A DNA stretch of 64,000 nt from Prorocentrum cordatum (lineage: Eukaryota > Sar > Dinophyceae > Prorocentrales > Prorocentraceae), in contig CAUYUJ010015263.1 of NCBI GenBank assembly GCA_963575745.1, positions 128,295 to 192,294 on the forward strand, written 5' to 3'. The notes beneath the pieces were generated by a model that saw only the letters and a list, made by a program, of their open reading frames with translations, did no database searches and was not told the origin of the DNA. The translations under genes and the position numbers were made by a program. Below, piece by piece: positions 7,017 to 57,100 of this stretch; positions within the stretch are counted from its first letter, which is position 1, and each line of letters begins with the position of its first letter.

Positions 7017-7965
7017 TCATCGTGGTCTCCAGATGTCCCAGCTCTCATGCGCTGGCTTCCGACGTCCGAACATTGACATAAGTAAACCTCCCTCGCAGCA
7101 ATGTAGCAGTCCTAACCCCTCCGCATCAAGTGTACAACAGTCGAGGCCGTGGGCCATGACGCTCTGCACCCTCTGCTGATGTCTCTGGAATTTGCCTCGT
7201 GGACTCACGGATTTTGAACGAATATAAGGTGCCTGCGCAAAGAACGTCCTCCTGGCCATCACAATCCTGTGGCGGATATCCCCATAGGTACTGTCGAATT
7301 CTGCCCCCACCACCGTGCCGAGTACCTGCATCTTCGTGTCTCTCTTGAGCGAGAAGGGTCTCCCCGCTAGGTCCACTTCGAAGCAACAGGATGGGGCATC
7401 TCCTGCAATCGTAGACTCGAGTGAATCTGGTTTCCATGCTAATCCCCAGTCTCTGAGGCAAGCGGTGAGTGATGTCAAGAGGTACTGCAAATCCCGAGCC
7501 GAGCTCGCAACGAGATATATGCTATCCGCCTACAAGGCATGTGAGTACCTGCACATCCATAGATACATCCAAGATGCCCGTCACATGGTATCCTAGCTGG
7601 AGGTCCCCCAAGAAATGAAGAGATCAGCACACACCGCAAGCACCACAAGGTTAAGAGTAGGGGGCTCTCTGTGCCCCCCGTAAGGATAGATCGGTCGCAC
7701 GATGTAGTAGCCTCCAAGCCTTCGAAACATGATATCCCAGACGTCCCCACCAGTGGTTCCAAGATCCCTTGTATGAACCGAGGCTGGACTTTGAGGCCCT
7801 CCAGAGCACGTGACACAACTTGGATCGTAATGTTGTCGAAAAGCCTTGTTGATGTCGGCCCGCGCAACGTAAGCAATTTGATCGTTGTTGCGTGTTCTCC
7901 CAGACGCTCCCACGTTGACATAGCTGTTTCAGTGGTTCCACGATCTCCCAGGAGCCACTACCACG
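7017..7965 (-). pseudogene. Relic of LINE reverse transcriptase (palm to thumb)
   Basis: Broken reverse-transcriptase coding sequence on the minus strand, readable only by switching frames. From 5' to 3' it shows a segment like the LINE-B region before motif A (SWEIVEPLKQLCQRGSVW versus TWEIAAALKGIAQRASIW), motif A as ADINKAF in one frame, motif B as LTGGTESP in another, the catalytic box near 7518-7534 as stop-ADS (TAG GCG GAT AGC), and a thumb segment ending in GRRKPAHESWDIWRP. The box fits an ancestral WADN with TGG mutated to TAG and N to S. Both ends of the element are missing and no target-site duplication is visible. It is an old member of the same retrotransposon clade as LINE-A, -B and -C, and non-functional. 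Confidence 0.9.
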
Positions 7966-8385
7966 GCTGAAATCGCACAGTTCCTTGCGATATACATGAA
8001 TGGCCTGCTGGCGCGGCAACCCCGCATTGCGCGACGGCCTGACTCGAATTCAACACCGTCTCTCATGAAACTGAAAGAATGCGAATAATTATTTGGTTGC
8101 ATCTTTGATAGCAGACCGAACTGCGGCGTCTAGACAAGAGACTGATGCTTCGCAGCATTCCCTGTCATTGGTATGCATCTCACCTCCAAAGCTGGATTCG
8201 GGGAATCGCACATCACCACAAAACATTTACATTGCGTATATTTTTCCAGTCGCAGCTGTAGTTGCAGGCCGAATCCAGACAGCTCGACGCCGTAGGCGTA
8301 CGTACCCCGTGACCGTGTGCTTCGAGCATTGCTGTTCAACTTCAAACAAAAAGAAAAACCTACCATTATCTCTCTTAAACTGGGA
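7966..8385. repeat. Worn repeat sequence without a gene
   Basis: Begins with a piece matching the tail of the hairpin unit at 6160 (ATACATGAATGGC, then GCGCGGCAA), so the relic upstream may once have sat in a hairpin unit. The rest is weakly similar to the 180-bp repeat. No gene seen. Confidence 0.45.
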
Positions 8386-20215: not shown

Positions 20216-21128
20216 CCGGGAAAACCCTCACTATCTCTAGAAAAGTTAGCAGAGTACGATAGTCTTCTGGACCGAGCTCTAATAGCAGACCGAATTCAGG
20301 CGTCTAGACACTTTATTTAGACTAGCGCATATGATGATTTCCTTCCGATTGCTGTGCCAAAGAGCTCTCTAGCTCATCTGCAGCGCGAGTTAAGTCCAGA
20401 AAACCATCATCATCTCGAAAGAAATTGGTGGAGTACAAATAGTTGCGCGGACCTAGCTCTGGTAGCAGACCGAGTTCAGACCTCTAGATGCTACAGACGA
20501 ACGCGCCTGCTGATTCTAGATCGATGAGGTCTGCATACCAGCTCTGTAGCGCTCCGACAGCTGGAGTTAAGTGCAGAAAACCGACAGCATCTCTTAAGAT
20601 GACCCGAACAGCCGATCCCGCCTGGATGCTTTTTGGCAGTAATAAGTACCCGATCGACCTGAGATTGAGGTGGCGAGCGGGAATGAGATCAAAAATGGGG
20701 GAAAAATACAAGGGATCTCAAACAAATTGCTGAATTTCGAGAAATCGAATAAATGCCAAGCAAAATCATGCAAAACTTCCGTCGATATTTTTTCGCCAAC
20801 TAGCCCCCCAGCGCGCCGGAATTGCTCTTCTAGCGTCGCCGCTTACGCTCCAAGCGAAGCTCTACGAGTCATTGTCCGATCTGGCCGGGTCGATCAACTA
20901 GCTCCCCCCTGCGCATAAAGTGAAGCTGGCGCCGGCGGTGAACCGTGAACCTGGCCACCGCTGGGAACCTCGTAGAGCTTCTAGCACGCATAAAGAGTGC
21001 TCGAATCCGAAGCAGACAGCTTCTGGGAGCATTTCCAGAAGAACGTCAAATTTACATTTTTCGGTGTCAACATGATCTCGGTTGCTTCAAATGTTTCGAT
21101 ACTAAAACTGGGCGCCGGCGGTAAACCG
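20216..21128 (+). repeat. 180-bp repeats, type II body fragment and hairpin units
   Basis: Two to three worn 180-bp repeats (20220-20620), a fragment of the type II body (CCGATCGACCTGAGATTGAG near 20650) and two hairpin starts near 20935 and 21115. The second is the left half of the hairpin that received LINE-A. No gene seen. Confidence 0.75.
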
Positions 21129-21140
21129 TCAACCTTTCTT
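21129..21140. repeat. Left target-site duplication of LINE-A
   Basis: TCAACCTTTCTT at 21129-21140 is repeated at 27233-27244. Joining the two flanks restores the usual type II hairpin with its loop CCGTCAACCTTTCTTACC, as seen uninterrupted at about 28360. Confidence 0.85.
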
Positions 21141-21197: not shown

Positions 21198-24100
21198 CTA
21201 GTCTCTCTGCAGCTGGAGGTCTTGGGCCACCTGGGCTGCGGCCCGCAAGAGGCCCTCGAGACCCGAAAGCTCAGCGTCAGTGATACTGCTATGGGAGGGG
21301 AGTGCCTGTGCACAACGCCCTACTACTTCCCATATGATTGGACAAGGAGAGGAGGCTTGGGGGAAGAGGGAGACTACACGAGCTCTCTTATCTCTATGCT
21401 CAGGGTCAGGGTAAGGGTCATGGAATCGAGGGATATATCCAATCTGCAGAAACCAACCAACGCCCACACCTTGGGCACACACTCCGCCGTCGAAGGATCC
21501 GCGGAGGCCAATAACTCGAAAGTTGTCTTGGACATCAGGACGAAAGATATGGTGGTGGAACAGCTCTCTGAATATCTGGCCTTCCCGTGCTAAGTGGGTA
21601 AGTTCATCAGCTACTGTATTACTCTCTCGATATATGTGTCGAATGAAGTCGTTGCCCCATGAGGGGGGTCGTATTCCTTCCTCCTCCAACTCTTCCAAAA
21701 GAGAAATAATATTTGCCACCCGCCTACGATAAGAAGCCCCATCTCCTCCTTCTCCTCCCTCAACCTTCCAGAGACCATTGATCCAGTTACAGATAAGAAG
21801 CGAATCGCCCGTCAGCTCAAGACCGATCCCATCATCACTCAGATCCCAAGTCGGCTCCTGTTCATTGTTCGAGGCCAATCTCTGGGCCAGCTTCTCGGAC
21901 TCCTTCGCCGACAACGGACGAGCCAACATCTCCTCCCCCCTCTCCTTTATGTAGTCTCCTCTCCCTCCAGTTCCTCCACGGACAACAAACAAGTCAAACA
22001 GAGACCCCAAAGTACAAGCTTCCAGGAACTGCCTGCAATACTGAACGAAGTCAGAGTAAGAGAAAGAGCACGCCCTCCACCACCGATCCTCCAGATTCAC
22101 AAACGAGGGAAATATCGTCTGGAACATGAAACACCAAGGATGTTCACCCGTCGCCTGCCCCTTAGTACTGCCTAATCGTGTCAGTTTCGAGGCCTCCTTC
22201 CACTTCCACTGGGAACGCAAATATTTTGACTCAAGTGTCCTTTTCTCCTCCCACCTCGGGGTACAGCACATCAGCAGCCGGCGTGCGTCACGATGCGCAC
22301 GAGGATACACCGTCTGTTGTCCAGGTCCAGGAACAGCCACCCTCCGACGTTTCGGGGGGGGCCTGGGGGAATCCCTAGGCCCCCCCCGCTCACAGGGAAC
22401 TTCAATATCTCGAGAAGAAGAGGCCCTATCAGAGGGCATAGCAGAAGAGACCATCCCATGCATATCTGAAGAGACAGCGCCCATCCCATTCGTATCTGAG
22501 AAGACTGCGCCCATCCCATTAGTAACTGCAGGGGCAGCACCCATCCCACTGGTAACTGAAGAGACTCCCACCATCCCATTAGTAACTGAAGAGACCACAC
22601 CCATCCCACTGGTAACTGGAGAGACCATCCCATGCATATCAGAAGAGACCACACCCATCCCATTCGTATCTGAAGAGACCGCACCCATCCCACTAGTAAC
22701 TGAAGAGACAGCCCCCATCCCATTGGTAACTGAAGAGACCTCCACCATCCCATTGGTAACTGAAGAGCCCGCGACCATCCCTGGGCTCAGCTCCGACTCA
22801 GGAATCTGATATCCGCTGTCGACATTAGCTCCGAAATATGATGCTATGTCAGCTCCAAGCTGCCACAAGGAATAAAGAACTCTCTGCACTGCACTCTGGC
22901 ACTTTGCTTCAAAGAACATCCGTCTAGCAATTCTGAGTCGAGCTGGCTTCCAAACTACCCAACTTTCGGAGGCTGGCTTTTGGGGTGACGTCATCTGGTA
23001 AAGACAATTTCCCTCGAAGACATTCAGGCTCTGCAAGGAGTCCCTGTCCCAACTAATACCTTGACTTCCATAAATGAGAATGCTCTGAACCCGAGTGATG
23101 TAACTCCTACACTTGGCCGAAAACGGGACTGCCTTTGATCTAAAATAGGCTGCATGCGCATGGAAGGCTCGTCGCGCGGCCCCGATCCGTCGCCGAAGGT
23201 CCTGGTGTGCCTCCCTATAGCTACAGTATATGCTGTTCCCCAAGACATTCATCTCGTCAACTACTTTGAACGGCACCATCTGATCCTGAACCCGAACCAG
23301 GATAGGATGTTTTGGCTTCTCCGAGAAACCGATAAACGCGACCTCGAGCGACTCGATCTTCCATTCGAATCCCCATCCCCGCAGAGTCTCTGTCATGTCT
23401 CCTACCTGTCGCCTAAACTCCTCCTCCGAAGATCCCAAGATAAAGATATTGTCGGCATATAGCAAGTGGTGTACAGGAACCGAGGCCGAAACTTCTCCCA
23501 CCGAGTTTGGATCCAGACAATGGAACCCAATCCCCTGCTCATCCCAAAGCTTAAATAAAGGAGCCCACATCGCAACAACTATCAGGTTCCACAAGGAGGG
23601 GCTGTCGTTCCCACCTGTCCTGATGTGGGTATCGATTCCCACATTCGGCAGCTGCAGGCCCTGGAAGAGAAGCGAAGTGACCTCGCACGGCATAGGCACG
23701 AGCACACCGTACTGGAGCCAGGGAGGGATAGAGAGGACGTCGAACGCACGTTTGACCGTCGAGATTTTCGTGTTCTGGAAAGCTTGTTTCACATCCGCTG
23801 ACCCAAGAACCAGACGTCGATCCTTCCCCCACTGTGAGGCGTGTTGTGCTGCTGCCTTAAGTCCTGCAAATATCTCAGTGCATGATCTTTTGGGAACGAA
23901 ACCGAATAACGATGCATGAGTGCCAGCCTGGAGACAATATGGTTCAAGCATGATCGAGAGACAAGTACTGTACCACTTCTTAAAGATACTCTCCACAGAA
24001 ATACGTCTCGTATCAGAAACATCGCATATCGGATAAGATTTGGGAAGTAACGTCGTCAATGTTTGATGCCAAGAAGATGGAGGTACAACAATGCCACGTA

Positions 24101-25607
24101 AGATATCACAAAATAATCGCTTGATAGTGCGAACGGCTCTCCACGGAAGCGCTTTGATTACTTCTGCCCCCACCCCGTCGGGTCCCGTGGCTTTTCCAGG
24201 GTTGAGTCGAGCTCGGGCCCGAAGGACCACCACCATCGTGAGCGTCGCCTCCTGGGGTCTGGGGGACCCCTGGAGCTCCTCCCTGAGGCCCTGGACAATC
24301 TTGATCGACCGCAGACGCTCCTCCTCATCCTCGCAGACCTCCTTCAACTTCATCATCTCCTCCATCCACCTCTCCCTGTCCACGCTCTCCTCCCCCTCAA
24401 TCTTCACCGCCTTCAAAGCTGCTTTACGTGGACGCTCCGCTTCCCATTCCAGCTTTGCTCGTTTGAATTTTCTGGCTTCCCGATCTCTTTTTCTGCGTAG
24501 AAGTCGATAGGCTAACGTCCCCCTCTCCGCCCTCCTCCGGTAGACCTGCACATCCAAGGACCGCAGCAATTCCGATCGTTCAGGGGCTCGAGCTGGGCGC
24601 TTCGGGGTACATTCTGTGGCCGACGCACACGAATAGATAACACTCTCTGCCTGACACATAAGTTGGCACGAAAATAGATTGGCATCCAACAACTGGCGAC
24701 ACGATCGACGAGCAGACAAGTTGAGTGGGTCCCAGCCTTTTAGGGTTCGAGAACGTCGTGAGAGATTCCGTCTCGCCAACTCCCTGGAAGCCACTCTCAG
24801 AGAAGCTCGAACAAGGGCATGATCTGATAATCTCATCACGGCTCCCTGCTGCTGTCCTACGTACAGAAACTCAACCGAGCACCCCGACACCTGCGATCCA
24901 TGAGGAACAAGGATGTAATCCAGCACTTCACGGCGGGACCCCTTCCGATAATCAAACCAAGTCGGCTTCCTAGCTCCAAAAGAATTCGAAGCACACATAC
25001 GCTCCTGAACCAACCAATCCTCCACCTCCTGTCGCAAGCTCTCCACCTTCTCCTTCCTCTCCCGCTCCTTGGTCCCCGTGGCCTGGATCTGCACTACCTC
25101 CAAGCCTCCTCCCGAATAAACCTCCTCCTCATGCTGTAAGTGTGGCTGTATCTCAACATTCGCATCCATGGCAACAACAAGACGACAGAAACCGTAACGA
25201 CGGCATACGTACTTTCTGAGCAAGCTCACCGACTGGAGTGCACAATGTGATATCTCCAGAAACTCGGGCTGGCTGGCATCAGGCAAGTACAATGAGACAA
25301 AGAGAATCCGTCCAGCAAGGATCGCGCACCACCTCTCTGAGGCCCACTGGCCTCGAACACTATCAGCCCTCCGATAGAGTATCATAGCACGGCGATCCTC
25401 CGAGACGTGGTAGTACAGTCCCATTTTGACAAACCATTGCGCCATAACGTCGATGTTCTGAGACTCCTGTACCCCCAGGAAATCCCAGCCTAGGTGTGCT
25501 CCGTAGACTACCCTCGCCAGAACACTATAAGCTTTGTCATCCTTCCTCCCAGCACGTTGAAGGTTGAGCGTGGCGAAGCGGACTTCCGTCGGCTCCGCCC
25601 GTCGGCG
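21198..25607 (-). CDS. LINE-A ORF2: endonuclease, reverse transcriptase, permuted RNase H
   Basis: Residues are numbered from the first ATG (25445). The open frame extends 54 codons further, to the ORF1 stop, without any ATG, and that extension holds the first endonuclease motifs (FATLNLQ and FLGVQES). The APE-type endonuclease continues with MDAN at 93-96, PTW at 161-163, LDY at 175-177 and SDH at 207-209. The reverse transcriptase has motif A with D551 (ADVKQAF), motif B RTGGNDSP at 609-616 and the catalytic box YADN at 663-666, where YADD is usual. A serine/valine/glycine repeat and a tryptophan-rich region follow. The C-terminal RNase H-like domain has D1214 (GDSLL), D1280 (VADELTH), D1319 (FDGG) and E1392 (DAELSGLE), a permuted order. 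The protein should nick target DNA and copy element RNA at the nick in the nucleus. The 1415-residue length is normal for such ORF2 proteins. Confidence 0.93.
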   Translation of the reverse strand, partial: RRRAEPTEVRFATLNLQRAGRKDDKAYSVLARVVYGAHLGWDFLGVQESQNIDVMAQWFVKMGLYYHVSEDRRAMILYRRADSVRGQWASERWCAILAGRILFVSLYLPDASQPEFLEISHCALQSVSLLRKYVCRRYGFCRLVVAMDANVEIQPHLQHEEEVYSGGGLEVVQIQATGTKERERKEKVESLRQEVEDWLVQERMCASNSFGARKPTWFDYRKGSRREVLDYILVPHGSQVSGCSVEFLYVGQQQGAVMRLSDHALVRASLRVASRELARRNLSRRSRTLKGWDPLNLSARRSCRQLLDANLFSCQLMCQAESVIYSCASATECTPKRPARAPERSELLRSLDVQVYRRRAERGTLAYRLLRRKRDREARKFKRAKLEWEAERPRKAALKAVKIEGEESVDRERWMEEMMKLKEVCEDEEERLRSIKIVQGLREELQGSPRPQEATLTMVVVLRARARLNPGKATGPDGVGAEVIKALPWRAVRTIKRLFCDILRGIVVPPSSWHQTLTTLLPKSYPICDVSDTRRISVESIFKKWYSTCLSIMLEPYCLQAGTHASLFGFVPKRSCTEIFAGLKAAAQHASQWGKDRRLVLGSADVKQAFQNTKISTVKRAFDVLSIPPWLQYGVLVPMPCEVTSLLFQGLQLPNVGIDTHIRTGGNDSPSLWNLIVVAMWAPLFKLWDEQGIGFHCLDPNSVGEVSASVPVHHLLYADNIFILGSSEEEFRRQVGDMTETLRGWGFEWKIESLEVAFIGFSEKPKHPILVRVQDQMVPFKVVDEMNVLGNSIYCSYREAHQDLRRRIGAARRAFHAHAAYFRSKAVPFSAKCRSYITRVQSILIYGSQGISWDRDSLQSLNVFEGNCLYQMTSPQKPASESWVVWKPARLRIARRMFFEAKCQSAVQRVLYSLWQLGADIASYFGANVDSGYQIPESELSPGMVAGSSVTNGMVEVSSVTNGMGAVSSVTSGMGAVSSDTNGMGVVSSDMHGMVSPVTSGMGVVSSVTNGMVGVSSVTSGMGAAPAVTNGMGAVFSDTNGMGAVSSDMHGMVSSAMPSDRASSSRDIEVPCERGGPRDSPRPPPKRRRVAVPGPGQQTVYPRAHRDARRLLMCCTPRWEEKRTLESKYLRSQWKWKEASKLTRLGSTKGQATGEHPWCFMFQTIFPSFVNLEDRWWRACSFSYSDFVQYCRQFLEACTLGSLFDLFVVRGGTGGRGDYIKERGEEMLARPLSAKESEKLAQRLASNNEQEPTWDLSDDGIGLELTGDSLLICNWINGLWKVEGGEGGDGASYRRRVANIISLLEELEEEGIRPPSWGNDFIRHIYRESNTVADELTHLAREGQIFRELFHHHIFRPDVQDNFRVIGLRGSFDGGVCAQGVGVGWFLQIGYIPRFHDPYPDPEHRDKRARVVSLFPQASSPCPIIWEVVGRCAQALPSHSSITDAELSGLEGLLRAAAQVAQDLQLQRD
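22438..22790 (-). repeat. In-frame 30-bp minisatellite inside LINE-A ORF2
   Basis: Roughly a dozen copies of a 30-base repeat encode variants of VSSVTNGMGA between the RT thumb region and the tryptophan-rich domain. The repeat keeps the reading frame throughout. It is absent from LINE-B and LINE-C, so it is a local expansion in a linker. Its length is likely to vary between copies. Confidence 0.9.
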
Positions 25608-25610
25608 TCA
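25608..25610 (-). other. In-frame TGA separating ORF1 and ORF2 of LINE-A
   Basis: ORF1 ends at TGA followed by CGC CGA. Downstream codons in the same frame stay open through all of ORF2, and the endonuclease motifs begin 12-15 codons after the stop, before any ATG. UGA followed by CG is a known leaky context in some plant-virus readthrough signals. Readthrough would give an ORF1-ORF2 fusion; the alternative is reinitiation at a non-ATG codon. LINE-B has the same arrangement. Confidence 0.6.
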
Positions 25611-40994: not shown

Positions 40995-41053
40995 AGCTCT
41001 CTCTTTCGACTCCGAGCATTCTTACGCGTGAACTTGCGCCGGCGGTGAACCGT

Positions 41054-41062
41054 CAACCTGGT
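41054..41062. repeat. Left target-site duplication of LINE-B
   Basis: CAACCTGGT at 41054-41062 recurs at 47003-47011. It lies at the same point of the hairpin loop as the LINE-A, LINE-C and LINE-D insertions. Confidence 0.8.
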
Positions 41063-41095: not shown

Positions 41096-44000
41096 TCAAC
41101 TGGCGGCCAGAATCTGCTGCGCCAAATGCACAACAGCGCTAGTAAGCGCCTCAGCAGCACTAAGTTCGGCGTCGGTTATCGTAGCACCCTCTAGGCACCA
41201 CGCGGCTTCGCACACATCCCTCCAAACGAGAGGCATATTAGAGGACACGGAGTAGGGGGAGGAGGAGGGGAGAGGAGAGCACGAGACACTCTTATTACAA
41301 TCATATCTGTGATTGATGAAACCCACTTGAAGCCAAAAGCCGCACCCCGTCCCTTTGCTGCAAACTCCCCCATCGTATCCACCACGACAGGCGATAGGTT
41401 GTAGAAAGTCCTCAAAGCTAAACATGTACTCATATTGGTTGTAGAAGCAGTGGCCCTCGCGGGCCAAATGTGTAAGTTCATCAGCTCGTGTGTTATCTTC
41501 CCTGAATTCATGCCTATATAAGTCTTTCCCCAATCCAGAACTTCGAATGCCCAGATCCCCCGCAGCTCGATCTAGAACGTTAATACATCGGTCCACACGT
41601 CTTTGGTATTGTTTGTTGTCGCATCGCCATCGCCCCGTCAACCAGTTATTCACAAGTAAACTATCCCCTTTGATTTCTACCCCGAATCCTGGACTTACAA
41701 TGTCCCACACCGTCTGCCTCTCGTTGATAATCGCCAGCCTCTTAGCAAGTTTTTGTGCATCTTTCTCACTCGGTACACGCTCAGTATCACCCACCGTCTC
41801 GGGAGGTGTATAGTACGCCGCTGTGCCCTTCCAGTTCTGAACAAAATACAGGAATACCTTTGGTTTATCGTACATGCACAAAAGATTCTGCCACATCTCC
41901 AGGAAAGAACGGTAGCTCGTCTCGACACTCGACCACCAGGAGCTGCCATATGTAAGAATGTATGGATACTGCCAGCTACGCTGGCCCACTCCCTCTGGGC
42001 CAGCTCTCAACCTCTTGATCGTGGATGCCTGAGTACGGTTCCCATGTAGTCGGCAACATTCTGCCATAATGTCCCTGCGCGTAGTCCACTCAACATTGTA
42101 CATGAGCAATCCCCTTCTGCTGTCCACGAAAGCCCTGTTATCAGGACTGCAGTGATCAATATCATGACCTGGCAGGGAGAGTGTGGGCAGTAGAGCCGCC
42201 GACCCACTCCCTGAATCAATATTCTCAGAAGCCAAAGAATCACCACCAAACCCTTGTCGTAGTCCCTGCAGTCGTCGTCTTTTCAAGGTCTGCCTGTTGA
42301 AGCTGGCGTCCTGGGTCGCAATGTGCCTGGCGAGCTCCTGTGAAACATCCTCCAGCCTATCACTCAATGCAATATTCTCAGCAACAACTTGTGAGATGGC
42401 TCCCGCGAAAGATTGCGAGGGTGTATCAGCAAAGCGTACTCTCTTCTGGGAAGGCCCAGGATCAGCACCAAGCGTGGCGACGTGTGCCTGGGGTGTTCCC
42501 TCGCATTCGGGGCTTCCCCAGGACTTGCGTCCTGACGCCTCCTGCAAAATTTGGCGACGTTGCCTGAGGTGTTCCCTCGCACTCGGGGCTTCCTCAGGAC
42601 TTGCGCTCTGACGCCGTTGAACATGTCGACGGTGACAATCTGACAAGATATACTCCTTGATACTTCTCATCATCGTCCAGCTCTTCCAAGCAATCATCTG
42701 TACAGCTGATGGGAAATTGGCCTCAGCGAAATGCTGTCGCACCTTGTGGAGCATCTCAGGGCGCCAGACACCCCATGTTAGCGAAGACGGCTTGCGACGG
42801 CACCACATACGCAGCAGACACATGCCCTCAAAAGCATGTATGGTTCGCACCGCCTCAGCATCAAGCGTGAACATCTCTCCCGCATATAGCAGACGCGATT
42901 GGACCTGAGCTTGATAACGACGATATTTGTGTTTCAGCGGTACCGATCTGCACCCAAAATATGATATCTGAGCGAAAAAGGATCCTCTGGCGCATTTAAG
43001 TCGATGTGCTAGGTCCTCGTGTCCCTCGAGAAAGCTTTTGCAGACAACGCAGCCCAGAATGGAAAGCGACTCCACCGGTGTGAAGGCAACTCGTTGGTCT
43101 CCGACTTGGGCCAGAATCGGCGTAGGGTCCTGGGTCCCGCATACGAGTATCTGCAAGGATGATGACTTCCAACTCATTCCCCAGTCTGCTAAAGCAACGG
43201 TGAAAACATCAACGATCTTCTGGATTTCCTTAGCATTCCTCCCCACAAGGTACAGATTATCAGCCCAAAGCGCACGGTTGTACGTGTGGTAGGTAGCGGG
43301 GTTGTGGGGGTCGGGGATCTCGTACCCTATGTTCTGAGCGTCCAGAGAGGCAACTACAGAGGCCCACATGGCGATAACCACGATGTTGAAGGCTAGCGGG
43401 CTCTCAGTCCCGCCCGTCCTCAAGCTCTTATCCCAAGACACCCCATCCAGTTGGATCCCTTCGAAGACGATGGTGCAATTTGTAATAGCGAGCGGCTCAA
43501 TAAGTGCATATTGTAAACGTGCTGGGATCTCTAGTTTATCCATTGCGCGTGCAAGCATACTGAGCGTGACATTGTCGAATGCTCGTGCAATATCTGCCGA
43601 TGCAATATGTGCGCTCTGATCCTTGCCCCATATAGAAGCGCGCTGTGCAATACCTTTAAGTGCGGCCGCGATCTCCCATGTATGCCGTCCCCCTGCAAAG
43701 CCGTAGATTCCCAACTTACTTTTCCAGAGAGCCAGCCTGTCCTCAATAAGAATAGTAACTGCCGTGAGGTACCACTTGCCTAGAGTGTTGGAAATTATCA
43801 AGTTCCTGGTGTCATCCAGGGACTCCATGTTGGACATCTTCGGCATGAGATTCAAATACACGTCACACCATGAGCTGGGAGTGCGTCGACGACCCGAATA
43901 TATCTCCTGAAACACAGCAGTGATCCTGCGCATCGAGCGCCATGGCAGAACTTTGAGTAACTCAATGCTGACACCATCGGGTCCACAAGCTTTGCCGCTA

Positions 44001-45388
44001 CGAAGGCGAGCGCGGGCTCGATATATGACGGAAGGCGTGAGTGTGGGGCCAACTGCTTGGCTGTCAAGTGCTGCGCGACGGAGACGTGTAACAAGTTGTG
44101 CATTACGCTCACGCTCAGCAGGACATGTCATGGTACGTACAGCATGTGCATGCACCTCCTCCTCCCAGGCCTCCCTGTCCTCCGTGACGATACCATCCAC
44201 CTTCAATTTACGAACTCTCGTCCTCTTCCCCCTCCTAGTCGGTGCTACTGAATATTCAGCTTTCTGTCGATTGTATTCGTCTTGCAATGGTCGGAGTTGC
44301 CGTCTAAGTTCACGCTGTGCTTGCCGATTGCCTTTATGTTCACGAACTTGCTTTTCAAGTAGGGCATGCTGTGGGGTCCTCGCAGGGGGTGACCTCTGGT
44401 GTCCAGGAGCACTCAGCAGGGGCAGGGCGTGATCACGAATTGTTTTTGCCATCTCCTCTGGGCCTACTACAGGTACCTGGATATCCACCAAAGCTCGAAA
44501 CATATCCTCCTCCCTGTGGCTCTCGAACTGCTTATGGGCACTATGATGCCTAGGTGCAGGACGGTAACGTGATGTAGGCTTCGCTGCAACATTCATCTCA
44601 ACACGAACGAGAGCGTGGTCGCTGAATCGGCTGTCGTGAGCCTCAAACAACATGTCCACTCTACCATCTACAATCATGTCAGACCAACTGGTGGGCACCA
44701 TGATGTAATCAAGCACACGGGGAGCCGTCTGCCTGCCTAAAGGTTCAAAAGTAGGCACCCTCCGAGTCCCTAGTGTATTTGTCGCGCAGAGCCGCATCCG
44801 CTGCATGAAGCCCTCCATCTCCTCCCTCATGTGATCTTCCCTCCACCTCCTCTGTTCATGATCCCCTTTCACACCATACCCTCTATGCATAGCAATGGAC
44901 AGAGCTTGGCCTGTGTGGATCCCGAACCTGGTCTCAAGTCCAGGCGTCAGCTCCACTTGGCAGTCTCCCGCCAGCACAAGTCTGTAGTCAGACCCATTCT
45001 TCGAACAAAAGTGTGCAAACGTCTGCCTAATATAACCAAGCATACTCTTCTGAACATCAAGTGCATCATCACGATCGCAGTGCGGGAAATACGCCGACAC
45101 CAAGAAAACACACGGGCGCCTAAACGCAAGTATTGAAATACGGTCTGTTGAAAAACTGGCTTTGATATTATGACGTTGTTGCCCTCTGATCACAACGCCA
45201 GCTTGCTTGCAAGTAGAGAGATAAGACTCCCATCCCAACTTTCTAAAACTGATCGAATTATGTGAGAGGTTCTGGCACTCCTGCAGACACACGATATTTA
45301 CCCCCAGTGTAGACAGCAGGCGCATGCAACTAAATCCCCTGTCCTGACTCTTGCCGATCTTATTCACATTCAAAGTCCCAAGCTGCAT
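41096..45388 (-). CDS. LINE-B ORF2: endonuclease, reverse transcriptase, permuted RNase H
   Basis: 1430 residues from an ATG at 45388, directly before the first endonuclease strand (MQLGTLNVNKIG). The frame stays open for 15 more codons upstream to the ORF1 TGA. Endonuclease: N9 (LNVNK), E37 (CLQEC), D142 (AGDCQ, where GDFN is common), D227 (LDY) and S256-D257-H258. Reverse transcriptase: D599 (ADIARAF), motif B RTGGTESP at 657-664, catalytic box WADN at 708-711. After the RT thumb comes a linker with a small internal duplication, then a region with RSWQY and SSWWS. The RNase H-like domain has D1242 (GDSLL), D1303 (TRADELTH), D1339 (YDGG) and E1408 (DAELSAAE). The spacing of the first two (61) is close to the 64 of E. 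coli RNase HI D70-D134, but their place in the chain is permuted. Expected role: target nicking and reverse transcription of its own RNA in the nucleus. Confidence 0.94.
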   Translation of the reverse strand: MQLGTLNVNKIGKSQDRGFSCMRLLSTLGVNIVCLQECQNLSHNSISFRKLGWESYLSTCKQAGVVIRGQQRHNIKASFSTDRISILAFRRPCVFLVSAYFPHCDRDDALDVQKSMLGYIRQTFAHFCSKNGSDYRLVLAGDCQVELTPGLETRFGIHTGQALSIAMHRGYGVKGDHEQRRWREDHMREEMEGFMQRMRLCATNTLGTRRVPTFEPLGRQTAPRVLDYIMVPTSWSDMIVDGRVDMLFEAHDSRFSDHALVRVEMNVAAKPTSRYRPAPRHHSAHKQFESHREEDMFRALVDIQVPVVGPEEMAKTIRDHALPLLSAPGHQRSPPARTPQHALLEKQVREHKGNRQAQRELRRQLRPLQDEYNRQKAEYSVAPTRRGKRTRVRKLKVDGIVTEDREAWEEEVHAHAVRTMTCPAERERNAQLVTRLRRAALDSQAVGPTLTPSVIYRARARLRSGKACGPDGVSIELLKVLPWRSMRRITAVFQEIYSGRRRTPSSWCDVYLNLMPKMSNMESLDDTRNLIISNTLGKWYLTAVTILIEDRLALWKSKLGIYGFAGGRHTWEIAAALKGIAQRASIWGKDQSAHIASADIARAFDNVTLSMLARAMDKLEIPARLQYALIEPLAITNCTIVFEGIQLDGVSWDKSLRTGGTESPLAFNIVVIAMWASVVASLDAQNIGYEIPDPHNPATYHTYNRALWADNLYLVGRNAKEIQKIVDVFTVALADWGMSWKSSSLQILVCGTQDPTPILAQVGDQRVAFTPVESLSILGCVVCKSFLEGHEDLAHRLKCARGSFFAQISYFGCRSVPLKHKYRRYQAQVQSRLLYAGEMFTLDAEAVRTIHAFEGMCLLRMWCRRKPSSLTWGVWRPEMLHKVRQHFAEANFPSAVQMIAWKSWTMMRSIKEYILSDCHRRHVQRRQSASPEEAPSAREHLRQRRQILQEASGRKSWGSPECEGTPQAHVATLGADPGPSQKRVRFADTPSQSFAGAISQVVAENIALSDRLEDVSQELARHIATQDASFNRQTLKRRRLQGLRQGFGGDSLASENIDSGSGSAALLPTLSLPGHDIDHCSPDNRAFVDSRRGLLMYNVEWTTRRDIMAECCRLHGNRTQASTIKRLRAGPEGVGQRSWQYPYILTYGSSWWSSVETSYRSFLEMWQNLLCMYDKPKVFLYFVQNWKGTAAYYTPPETVGDTERVPSEKDAQKLAKRLAIINERQTVWDIVSPGFGVEIKGDSLLVNNWLTGRWRCDNKQYQRRVDRCINVLDRAAGDLGIRSSGLGKDLYRHEFREDNTRADELTHLAREGHCFYNQYEYMFSFEDFLQPIACRGGYDGGVCSKGTGCGFWLQVGFINHRYDCNKSVSCSPLPSSSPYSVSSNMPLVWRDVCEAAWCLEGATITDAELSAAEALTSAVVHLAQQILAAS
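42480..42605 (-). repeat. In-frame duplication in the LINE-B ORF2 linker
   Basis: Two copies of a segment containing GGTGTTCCCTCGCA and GGACTTGCG about 60 bases apart encode two similar arginine- and glutamate-rich blocks (EEAPSAREHLRQR, then ECEGTPQ). It lies in the same linker as the LINE-A minisatellite, so this part of ORF2 tolerates expansion. Confidence 0.75.
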
Positions 45389-45433
45389 GAGTAGGGAGTC
45401 AGGCAACCCACTCTTAGGACCCGTTGAGCCCCG

Positions 45434-45436
45434 TCA
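45434..45436 (-). other. In-frame TGA separating ORF1 and ORF2 of LINE-B
   Basis: TGA followed by CGG GGC; ORF2 lies in the same frame and the frame is open from the stop on. UGA-CGG is the core of a readthrough signal known from tobra- and pecluviruses. An ATG 16 codons downstream offers ordinary reinitiation as an alternative. Confidence 0.6.
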
Positions 45437-54114: not shown

Positions 54115-54183
54115 AAGTTGTCACATTGTCCGTTCTGATCGGGTCGACCAACTGGGAACCGGCGGTGAACCGTCAACCTGGTT
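54115..54183. repeat. Left 69-bp target-site duplication of LINE-C
   Basis: The 69 bases from AAGTTGTCACATTGTCCG to CGTCAACCTGGTT are repeated without a mismatch at 57685-57753. The duplication covers the unit tail, the ACTGG end and the first half of the hairpin. Confidence 0.85.
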
Positions 54184-57100
54184 TTTGCGGCTTTGCGAGG
54201 CTCCTACTGGCCCTAGGGCCACGAGCAAGCATGAGGTCAGGTGTCATCAGGAAGCGAAAGCTCTTATTCGAACCTAAAGTCAAGACAACCCAGAGCAGCG
54301 AAGCTGCGATGAATCATCAATCACAAATATGAGCGAACGAGCAAACGCACACAGAAATGAATCAAAGTGCAGTCAACTAAACATGCAAGAGAAAAGAGAA
54401 GTCCCAGCGAAAGCTGAGTAAATCATAGTATGAGGAAGAACAGTGAAATAAGAAAAACTGCAACTATCAAGTCTGTGATAACCATAGAACTGCCTGTGGG
54501 AGCGCAGTCACGATGCACTCCAAAGCACTGAGTTCTGTATCAGTAACAGTTGTGGTCGGAGAAATAAGCCAAGCCCTCTCAAAAACTGACTTCCATATCA
54601 GCTGAGCGGGGTCCCGTCGATCCCAATACCGAGGTTTGAGGCCTATGTCTATCCAGCAACCGCACCCACATCCCTCAGACGACACGCCGCCATCGAAACC
54701 AGCCCGAATAGCAGCAGCAACGTAAAATTCTGTCTCATAATCATGTGTATACGGACTACATTCTGAACTAGAAATCTGGCCCTCTCGGGCCTGGTGTGTT
54801 AGAACGTCGGCACGAGTGTTCCACTCCCGAAAATCATGACGAATAAGATCCATACCCGGCGCTGGAGGTCGTATATTATAGCTGCAACAAAGCCCATCAA
54901 GCGTATTGATAATTTTTGATATTCTATCCGCATATGATCTATTATCTGCACGCCACCGTCCCGTAGCCCAGCTAACCACGAGAAGCGAGTCACCCACCAC
55001 CTCCAGAGGGATTCCAGGGGCCTCCAGGTTCCAACGGGTTGCTTTCATATTATGAAGAGCGATGCGCTTTGCAAGTTTCTCAGCAGCCATCGGACTATCA
55101 TCCGTGCTCACCTGGATTTCACCATGCTCGGAGGGCGCCAAATATGCGGGCGAACTCACAGGTCCGCACGTCGACACCTCCTGGAAACATTGAAGCATGC
55201 TATGAGTACAAAGGTGCGTGGCGTATTGCATAAATCCAAGCTGGGAGCCTGTGAAATGAATCCACCAATCATCTCCGAAAAACTCAGCTAATGTATATTG
55301 CCATGATCTCTGTCCAATACTCTCCGTACCTCGACAGCGACGTTTGTAAGAAGAGGCCTCCGACCAGTTGCCAAAGTGTCTCATCGTCTCGCTCATAAGT
55401 GTACGAGTGCGGTCAGTGTACGGTCCAAAACATAAACTCGCCATACGGGAATCGCGCCATGTCCTCTCCGCCGCCTTCAAGTCAATCACTTTCTCAACAA
55501 TCATGCCATTTGCGAAACTTGCAATGTCTTTTGCGAAATTCCAGTGCAATATCAGATAACGCTGGACAAGAGAGGAGTACCCAGCCTTCAAGAAACGTTC
55601 CCGTGCGACATGATATCTCCTCTGCTGATAAGCTTGCTCCGTTTCCGTCGGGCCTTTTCGAGAAGAGATCATCATCTTCAGGCATTTCCCTTCGAAGGAA
55701 TGGAGAAACGAGAGAGTATAAGAATCTGCAGTGGTGGTCTCCATACCATACAGAGCCAGGCTCTGGACTCTGTCCTGGTATCTCCGCAGCTTATCCTTGA
55801 GAGGAATACAGTGCGACCTGAAATACCCTGCCTGAGAGTAAAATGCGCGACGAGCACAGTCTAGGCGAAAAGAAACATCACGATGTACAGAACAGTTATA
55901 TTCACTATGCAGCTGCGTGCCCAGTACGTCCATAGAAACAACTCGACGGTAACATAACTCATCAATCTGCTGCACTGCATTCCTCCCGTCACATGCATCT
56001 GAGAAGATCGGTATTTTAAGATCCATCGAACGCGGGATATTCCCGTCCTCATCCAAGACAGCAGGAGCTCCGCACACCATGTACTTCAGCGATGTGGGTT
56101 TCCATCGCATCGAGAAGTTGTAAAGTGGAAGTGTCAAGTCTCTTACCATACGAGTAAGCTCCTCACGGCTACGACTGACGAGGTACACGTTATCTGCCCA
56201 GATAAAATGATTCACCACCGACCGATGCTCCGTACCGAAATCTACCGCATACCCCATGCCCTGAACGTCCCAATTATGAATAACGTCACCCCACATGGCA
56301 GCAATAATGAGGTTAAAGCCCAAGGGCCCTTCTGGGCCTCCAGTCCTAATACAGGTGTCCCACTGGATGTTATCAATCTCCAACCCGTCATAGTAGAGGC
56401 AGCCCGTGCTGTGCGATAACGGATCCAGAAACGCGTGCTGTAAATACGCAGGGACACGTGCATGCTCAAGACCCTTATGAACGTTCTGTATCGTGCAGTT
56501 GTCAAAGGCCTGGTATATGTCCATGTCCGCAACGTACAGACACTCACGCTTCCCCCACTTGTCCCCGTGCATACACATGTTAGTAAGGCTACTCGTGATA
56601 TGGGATGTGCTGTGACCCTGACGGAACCCATAGAGGCCCAGAGGATGAAATAGCTTAGACTCTTCCACATGCTGCTCCACCAGGATAACTACGCACGCCG
56701 AGAACCAGCGAGTTATGCTATTCTGTAAGCACAAGAGTCGAGCATCCGCCAAGTTCGTGATCCCCTTTAGTTTAGGCATGTATGCAATGAGAATGTCCCT
56801 CCATCGAACAGGGTACTGGACAACCAGCCTCAAAAGAGAGTCGAAGATCTGTTGGATGTGCCGAACTGTGCACCATGGGAGAAGCTTGAGCATTTCACAA
56901 GGTACGCGATCCGGTCCTGTTGCCCGTCGCGTTCGAAGACGAGCCCTCGCTGCACAACATATCGACATCGTAATACTTCGAATGATCTGGCCACCCTTGA
57001 TCTCCTCCTCCGCCTTCCTCCTGATTTCCTCCATCAAGTTGCTGTTCTCCTCCCTCCTACGCTGTGATGTCACCTTCCCCTTAACATGCTCCTCCAACTT

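Follow-up and report, generated by a model that had tools for sequence, protein, structure and literature searches.

Each of the three long second open reading frames (ORF2s) of long interspersed nuclear elements (LINEs) in a 64-kb stretch of Prorocentrum cordatum DNA (contig CAUYUJ010015263.1, positions 128,295 to 192,294; hereafter the window) very probably ends in one circularly permuted archaeal/plant-type RNase H (aRNH) domain, which takes up the last ~190 residues. This reading draws on the order of the motifs, the invariance of the catalytic residues, the register that these residues reach once the domain is re-cut, the confident prediction of a single domain and a low ratio of nonsynonymous to synonymous substitution rates (dN/dS). 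The three frames, LINE-A, LINE-B and LINE-C, all lie on the minus strand (Table 1). An earlier interpretation made from the letters of the window (the sequence-only reading) used the names LINE-A and LINE-B the other way round, and its residue numbers are offset from ours by one constant per protein.

Motif order in the ORF2 C-terminal domain

In all three elements the C-terminal motifs follow each other as GDSLL, ADxLTH, (F/Y)DGGV and D(A/T)ELS, confirming the order, with all four catalytic acids, that the sequence-only reading had claimed. The distances between the acids (GDS Asp to AD Asp, AD Asp to DGG Asp and DGG Asp to DxELS Glu) are 61, 36 and 69 residues in LINE-A, 66, 39 and 73 in LINE-B and 61, 38 and 53 in LINE-C, matching the spacings it had given for the first pair (61-66) and for the join of the old termini (36-39). 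Its claim that divergent elements agree likewise stands, the motifs being kept at ORF2 identities to LINE-A of 32% and 34%. Searching with a profile built from the three C-terminal regions retrieved nine homologous public proteins, none with a Pfam annotation, and a second search with a re-cut profile gained further family members. The family set analysed here comprises 14 members spanning the whole domain: the three window elements and 11 public proteins, predicted from public genomes and metagenomes and found by these profile searches. The Asp of GDS, the Arg of RExN, the Asp of AD, the Asp of DGG and the Glu of DxEL are invariant and in the same order in 14 of 14 members, and in every member the first Asp pair is 61 or 66 residues apart and the join gap spans 36-39 residues. 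With the order conserved throughout the set, public proteins included, chance is unlikely to account for it.

All 14 members carry the four acids D-E-D-D of RNase H1 (RVT_3/aRNH type), and the canonical order beta1-2-3-alphaA-beta4-...-beta5-alphaE is replaced by one in which beta4 to alphaE precedes beta1 to alphaA. The accessible parts of PMC4640811 and PMC5348765 give an Arg in place of the fifth-site His as a hallmark of aRNH; this Arg is present in 14 of 14 members, and we therefore assign the domain to the aRNH type. Two incomplete family matches (P0017 and P0038) both belong to a EukProt entry for Pyramimonas sp.; either the family extends to green algae or the entry is contaminated. 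Pattern scans of prokaryote contigs and of viral contigs found no relative.

Re-cutting brings the domain into canonical register

In hhalign comparisons, the first half of the domain (beta4 to alphaE) aligned with the C-terminal half of the canonical enzyme. The probability was 96.0% for 22 canonical domains from this genome (template columns 67-126 of 132) and 98.8% for 51 public canonical domains (columns 65-130). The second half alone reached 1.7-22.6% in local mode, always at the expected template start (columns 4-52), with 4, 0, 0 and 1 of 100 column shuffles attaining the observed score, and 0.06-8.3% in global mode, where one of four alignments was misplaced. Re-cutting the 14-member profile at (F/Y)DGG extended the global alignment from 67 to 125 columns (95.2% to 98.0%) for the genome domains and from 71 to 128 columns (98.9% to 99.2%) for the public ones. 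A local rotation scan produced a score plateau for cuts at column 78 to about 174, which supports the placement of helix A ahead of beta4 and leaves the beta1 end unplaced.

We also aligned the 14 members blindly with 73 canonical domains using MAFFT. In native order, D70, the Arg and D134 were in register in all members, E48 was unaligned in all 14 and the D10 column held an Asp in four, whereas re-cutting at (F/Y)DGG brought all five catalytic columns into register in 14 of 14. Five other rotations each performed less well, two losing two columns, two losing one and the last losing D10 in nine of the 14 members.

Six matched sequences scored 13.7 bits native and 18.2 bits re-cut against LC11 RNase H1 (PDB 3u3g) and were nearly unchanged against 4e19 (15.8 to 16.3 bits); nine re-cut sequences reached 26.1 bits (E 7.1e-5) against 3u3g. 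With 8000 public protein candidates scored, the re-cut profile gave 68 matches at E <= 10, comprising 51 proteins with PF13456, 16 family members and one other (P0067); the best RNase HI among them had an E of 2.9e-3, each match being individually weak. Pfam RVT_3 did not match any of the three full-length ORF2s. It scored the LINE-A domain at 13.1 bits native and 16.1 re-cut and P0005 at 12.8 and 13.7, all under the 21.6-bit gathering cut-off, and gave no match to the isolated LINE-C domain. The proposal in the sequence-only reading that a re-cut domain should score better was thus borne out: scores rise with matched sequences, and the catalytic columns come into register.

A single domain with permuted strand order is predicted

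AlphaFold2 predicted the LINE-C domain (188 residues) as a single unit with a predicted local distance difference test score (pLDDT) of 93.0 and a predicted template modelling score (pTM) of 0.90, in which the strands run b4-b5-b1-b2-b3 and helix A comes last. As one domain is predicted, the refuting outcome of two separate half-domains named in the sequence-only reading did not arise. In the LINE-A model, pLDDT falls below 50 at residues 245-254 and 258-264, within the beta2-beta3 loop. On the RNase H fold proposed in the sequence-only reading, LINE-C is predicted as a single domain with the permuted order, and in sequential tools the alignment with RNase H covers the first half only.

Copies, constraint and phylogeny

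We searched the genome to which the window belongs (4.13 Gb, 21,875 contigs), in which all copy counts are lower bounds. At least 122 matches to the LINE-A C-terminus (scored, of 5703 candidates) and at least 132 to LINE-C (scored, of 5748 candidates) were found, 114 and 124 of which, respectively, are free of internal stops; 30 of the 132 scored LINE-C matches tie for the top score at 100% identity, the query included. Between LINE-A and the subfamily copy L066, dN/dS is 0.04 in the first RNase H half and 0.07 in the reverse transcriptase (RT), as against 0.38 in the linker and 0.29 in the beta2-beta3 loop, and dN is 0 over the 56 nonsynonymous sites of beta1-beta2 and the 98 of beta3-alphaA, the site numbers in this second half being small. 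Compared with the more distant L061, dS in the first half is saturated and dN is 0.153, next to 0.132 in the RT and 0.562 in the linker; dN/dS is 0.06 in beta1-beta2 and 0.07 in beta3-alphaA. Judged from these substitution patterns, both halves of the domain look to be under constraint.

We built a tree of 87 domains in which the permuted members were entered in re-cut form; all 14 of them fall into one clade with support 1.0, and its neighbours are public RNase HI proteins (support 0.68-0.91). A single origin of the permuted layout appears to be the simplest reading of this tree.

Alternative readings

Some points weaken the case for a permuted and active RNase H. Sequential structure searches place other folds above RNase H; the second half by itself is scarcely detectable from sequence; the LINE-A model has a helix (residues 89-104) before beta4, at the position of canonical helix A; and RNase H activity is a prediction. 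The last of these, together with the fact that many LINEs do without any RNase H, would suit a permuted domain that persists as an inactive structural relic or as a nucleic-acid-binding module. We consider this unlikely in view of the invariance of all catalytic positions in the 14 members, a dN/dS about equal to that of the RT between LINE-A and L066, and the prevalence of stop-free copies among the scored genome matches to both LINE-A and LINE-C.

The helix before beta4 and the faintness of the second half would instead favour a canonical RNase H whose upstream N-terminal half has decayed and whose unrelated C-terminal extension carries DGG and DxEL by chance. This is highly improbable: the 157 residues that precede beta4 reach 0.07% and 0.13% with the two profiles of canonical RNase H and reveal no hidden N-terminal half, the Asp and Glu of the extension are invariant in the family and fall into register upon re-cutting, its strand and helix parts show the dN of 0 between LINE-A and L066, and AlphaFold2 joins it to the first half as one unit. 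We give hardly any credence to two truncated tandem RNase H copies that supply one half each and complement in trans between ORF2 molecules as a swapped dimer. The duplication and deletion proposed below would pass through such a state, and ORF2 dimers would be compatible with these data, but AlphaFold2 makes one unit out of one chain (pTM 0.90) and the join gap is so narrowly kept.

Proposed architecture, activity and origin

In the permuted RNase H that we favour, the chain would begin at beta4 (GDS), pass through beta5 and helix E (RExNxxAD), cross a join of ~37 residues built from the old termini and continue into beta1 (DGG), beta2, beta3 and helix A (DxEL), such that the RT side is connected to beta4 and not to beta1, and helix A forms the free C-terminus. 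The four acids would build one two-metal site. In LINEs generally, target-primed reverse transcription leaves an RNA/cDNA hybrid, and the enzyme may degrade the RNA of this hybrid and so free the first strand for second-strand synthesis. We hypothesise a single origin of the layout, in which a canonical RNase H domain was duplicated in tandem and its outer halves were then lost.

ORF1 and ORF2 are separated by a single UGA codon

In LINE-A, LINE-B and two full-length LINE-C copies, ORF1 and ORF2 lie in the same frame, and a single UGA, with C as the next base, stands between them. No Met precedes the putative endonuclease region in LINE-B, in the two full-length LINE-C copies or in four of six loci of the A2 subfamily (L061, L062, L065 and L069, not L063 and L064); in LINE-A there is a Met at residue 16. 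Intact ORF2s that lack a Met before this region suggest readthrough of the UGA stop codon.

Insertion into a dispersed hairpin repeat

The three window elements have a common insertion site inside a dispersed hairpin repeat (CCGGCGGTGACCAGGTTGACGGTTCACCGCCGG). This repeat folds as a hairpin (z -2.95) and occurs 30 times in the window between 8387 and 57761 (<=3 mismatches), where none would be expected; 29 of the 30 copies are on the minus strand, a strong orientation bias. We examined 30 LINE-A loci cut from the 122 scored matches, L001 being the window copy. Downstream of ORF2, all 30 have a short 3' untranslated region, then an A-run, in keeping with the A-rich 3' end of LINEs, and then a target resembling CCAGG. 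On visual inspection, 29 of them run on into the hairpin repeat, the exact sequence GGTTGACGG being present in 25; the exception, L009, has only CCAGGTTG in common with it. In another set of 12 loci, in which L070 is the same copy as L015 and the flanks of L063 and L064 are identical, 11 show the hairpin. The remaining locus, L068, is without it and carries CCATTTTGGCTCAAG, partly doubled, directly after the element (L068:4492), outside the usual hairpin target. A match of this type was seen at L068 only among the window and 74 loci, and we take the sequence to resemble the dinoflagellate spliced leader.

Wider interpretation and relation to known RNases H

Circular permutation of RNase HI has been achieved by engineering. 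For the wider picture we put the chances at somewhat better than even: a recently active, hairpin-site-specific LINE clade, probably of dinoflagellates, would carry the first described natural, circularly permuted RNase H1 that is predicted to be catalytically competent, made by readthrough of the UGA as a joint ORF1-ORF2 product. On this view the permutation would stem from a single duplication-deletion event in an ancestor and may give the nuclease a position relative to the RT that differs from that in other LINEs. If true, a natural permutant that retains every catalytic residue would be an uncommon example of an enzyme under selection with an altered chain order, and would show that LINE RNase H can be rewired. 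The layout would serve to recognise a LINE clade in which Pfam misses the RNase H, and would allow tests of what the position of the RNase H means for LINE replication; searches of retroelements with canonical profiles alone may undercount RNase H.

The closest solved relatives by sequence are archaeal-type RNases HI (3u3g, LC11-RNase H1; 4e19, Halobacterium RNase H1; 3aly/2ehg, Sulfolobus RNase HI), which share the beta4-alphaE sequence, the Arg at the His position and the four acids but have the canonical chain order, whereas the LINE domain begins at beta4 and finishes at alphaA. RNase H in LINEs, including C-terminal aRNH, is already well known. Plant Ta11-type and oomycete L1 elements have an aRNH at the C-terminal end of ORF2, with a CCHC motif reported upstream, and the accessible parts of the report leave permutation unmentioned, with 'permut' and 'circular' occurring 0 times (PMC5348765). 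Oomycete Utopia LINEs also possess an RNase H domain, placed, however, upstream of the RT in the sections available (PMC4640811). The available portion of a 2025 preprint on CIRPIN (PMC12667903) reports two AlphaFold DB 'Ribonuclease H-like domains' related by circular permutation; the pair resembles our case in being a permutation within the RNase H-like fold class, but concerns computed structures of unnamed proteins, with no LINE mentioned there. The accessible part of a review of the RNase H superfamily (PMC3985635) has no occurrence of 'permut'. We found no description of a permuted RNase H in a LINE or other retroelement in the open-licence literature searched, in line with the statement in the sequence-only reading that no LINE with this layout was known to it.

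The same genome contains other RNases H. From 610 candidates for RVT_3, 150 were scored and 80 matches obtained, and five loci were read with Pfam. The LINEs L042, L031 and L055 have a canonical-order RNase H upstream of the RT; in L058 a canonical-order RNase H comes after a weak RT match (17.1 bits, below the cut-off), close to where the frame ends; and L038 has no RT within the stretch examined.

Features of the elements

Pfam RVT_1 was above its cut-off in all three full-length ORF2s, and the closest PDB sequence matches are mostly LINE-1 ORF2p entries. For the upstream endonuclease, Exo_endo_phos reached 14.9 bits in LINE-B alone, under the 24.5 cut-off.

Table 1. Features of the three LINEs in the window.
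Feature	Position	Strand	Remarks
LINE-A ORF2	41096..45433	-	putative endonuclease region (alignment to LINE-B), reverse transcriptase and predicted permuted RNase H
LINE-A ORF1, 479 aa	45434..46873	-	in frame with ORF2; single UGA then CGG between
LINE-A RNase H first half	41456..41686	-	beta4 (GDS), alphaB, alphaD, beta5, alphaE (RExNxxADxLTH); matches canonical C-terminal half
LINE-A join of old C- and N-termini	41384..41455	-	part of the 36-residue ADxLTH-DGG gap
LINE-A RNase H second half	41099..41383	-	beta1 (YDGG), beta2, loop, beta3, alphaA (DAELS); end of ORF
LINE-A beta2-beta3 loop	41228..41311	-	low model confidence, evolves faster
LINE-A target site	41040..41062	-	hairpin-repeat remnant directly 3' of the element
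LINE-B ORF2	21198..25607	-	
LINE-B ORF1, 369 aa	25608..26717	-	in frame with ORF2; UGA then CGC between
LINE-B RNase H first half	21582..21827	-	
LINE-B RNase H second half	21201..21500	-	FDGG ... DAELS
LINE-B target site	21111..21134	-	hairpin-repeat sequence directly 3' of the element; position hand-counted from flank
LINE-C ORF2, 1091 aa	54467..57742	-	5'-truncated; two full-length genome copies have 1329 aa
LINE-C RNase H first half	54782..55012	-	
LINE-C RNase H second half	54470..54703	-	FDGG ... DTELS
LINE-C target site	54170..54182	-	hairpin-repeat sequence directly 3' of the element
ORF1-ORF2 UGA	45434-45436 (LINE-A), 25608-25610 (LINE-B)		also in L073 and L074

The active-site box of the RT, usually (Y/F)ADD, reads WADN or YADN in the window elements (LINE-A, 43256-43267; LINE-B, 23448-23459; LINE-C, 56189-56200); of nine ORFs examined, eight have this form and L069 gave no match. 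The linker between the RT and the C-terminal domain of LINE-B ORF2 contains a degenerate short peptide repeat (SSVTNGMG-like). At L071, a LINE-A C-terminus lies within a 2107-aa open frame whose N-terminus looks unrelated. A decayed fourth LINE RT fragment, spread over several frames, is located at 7020-7971 on the minus strand.
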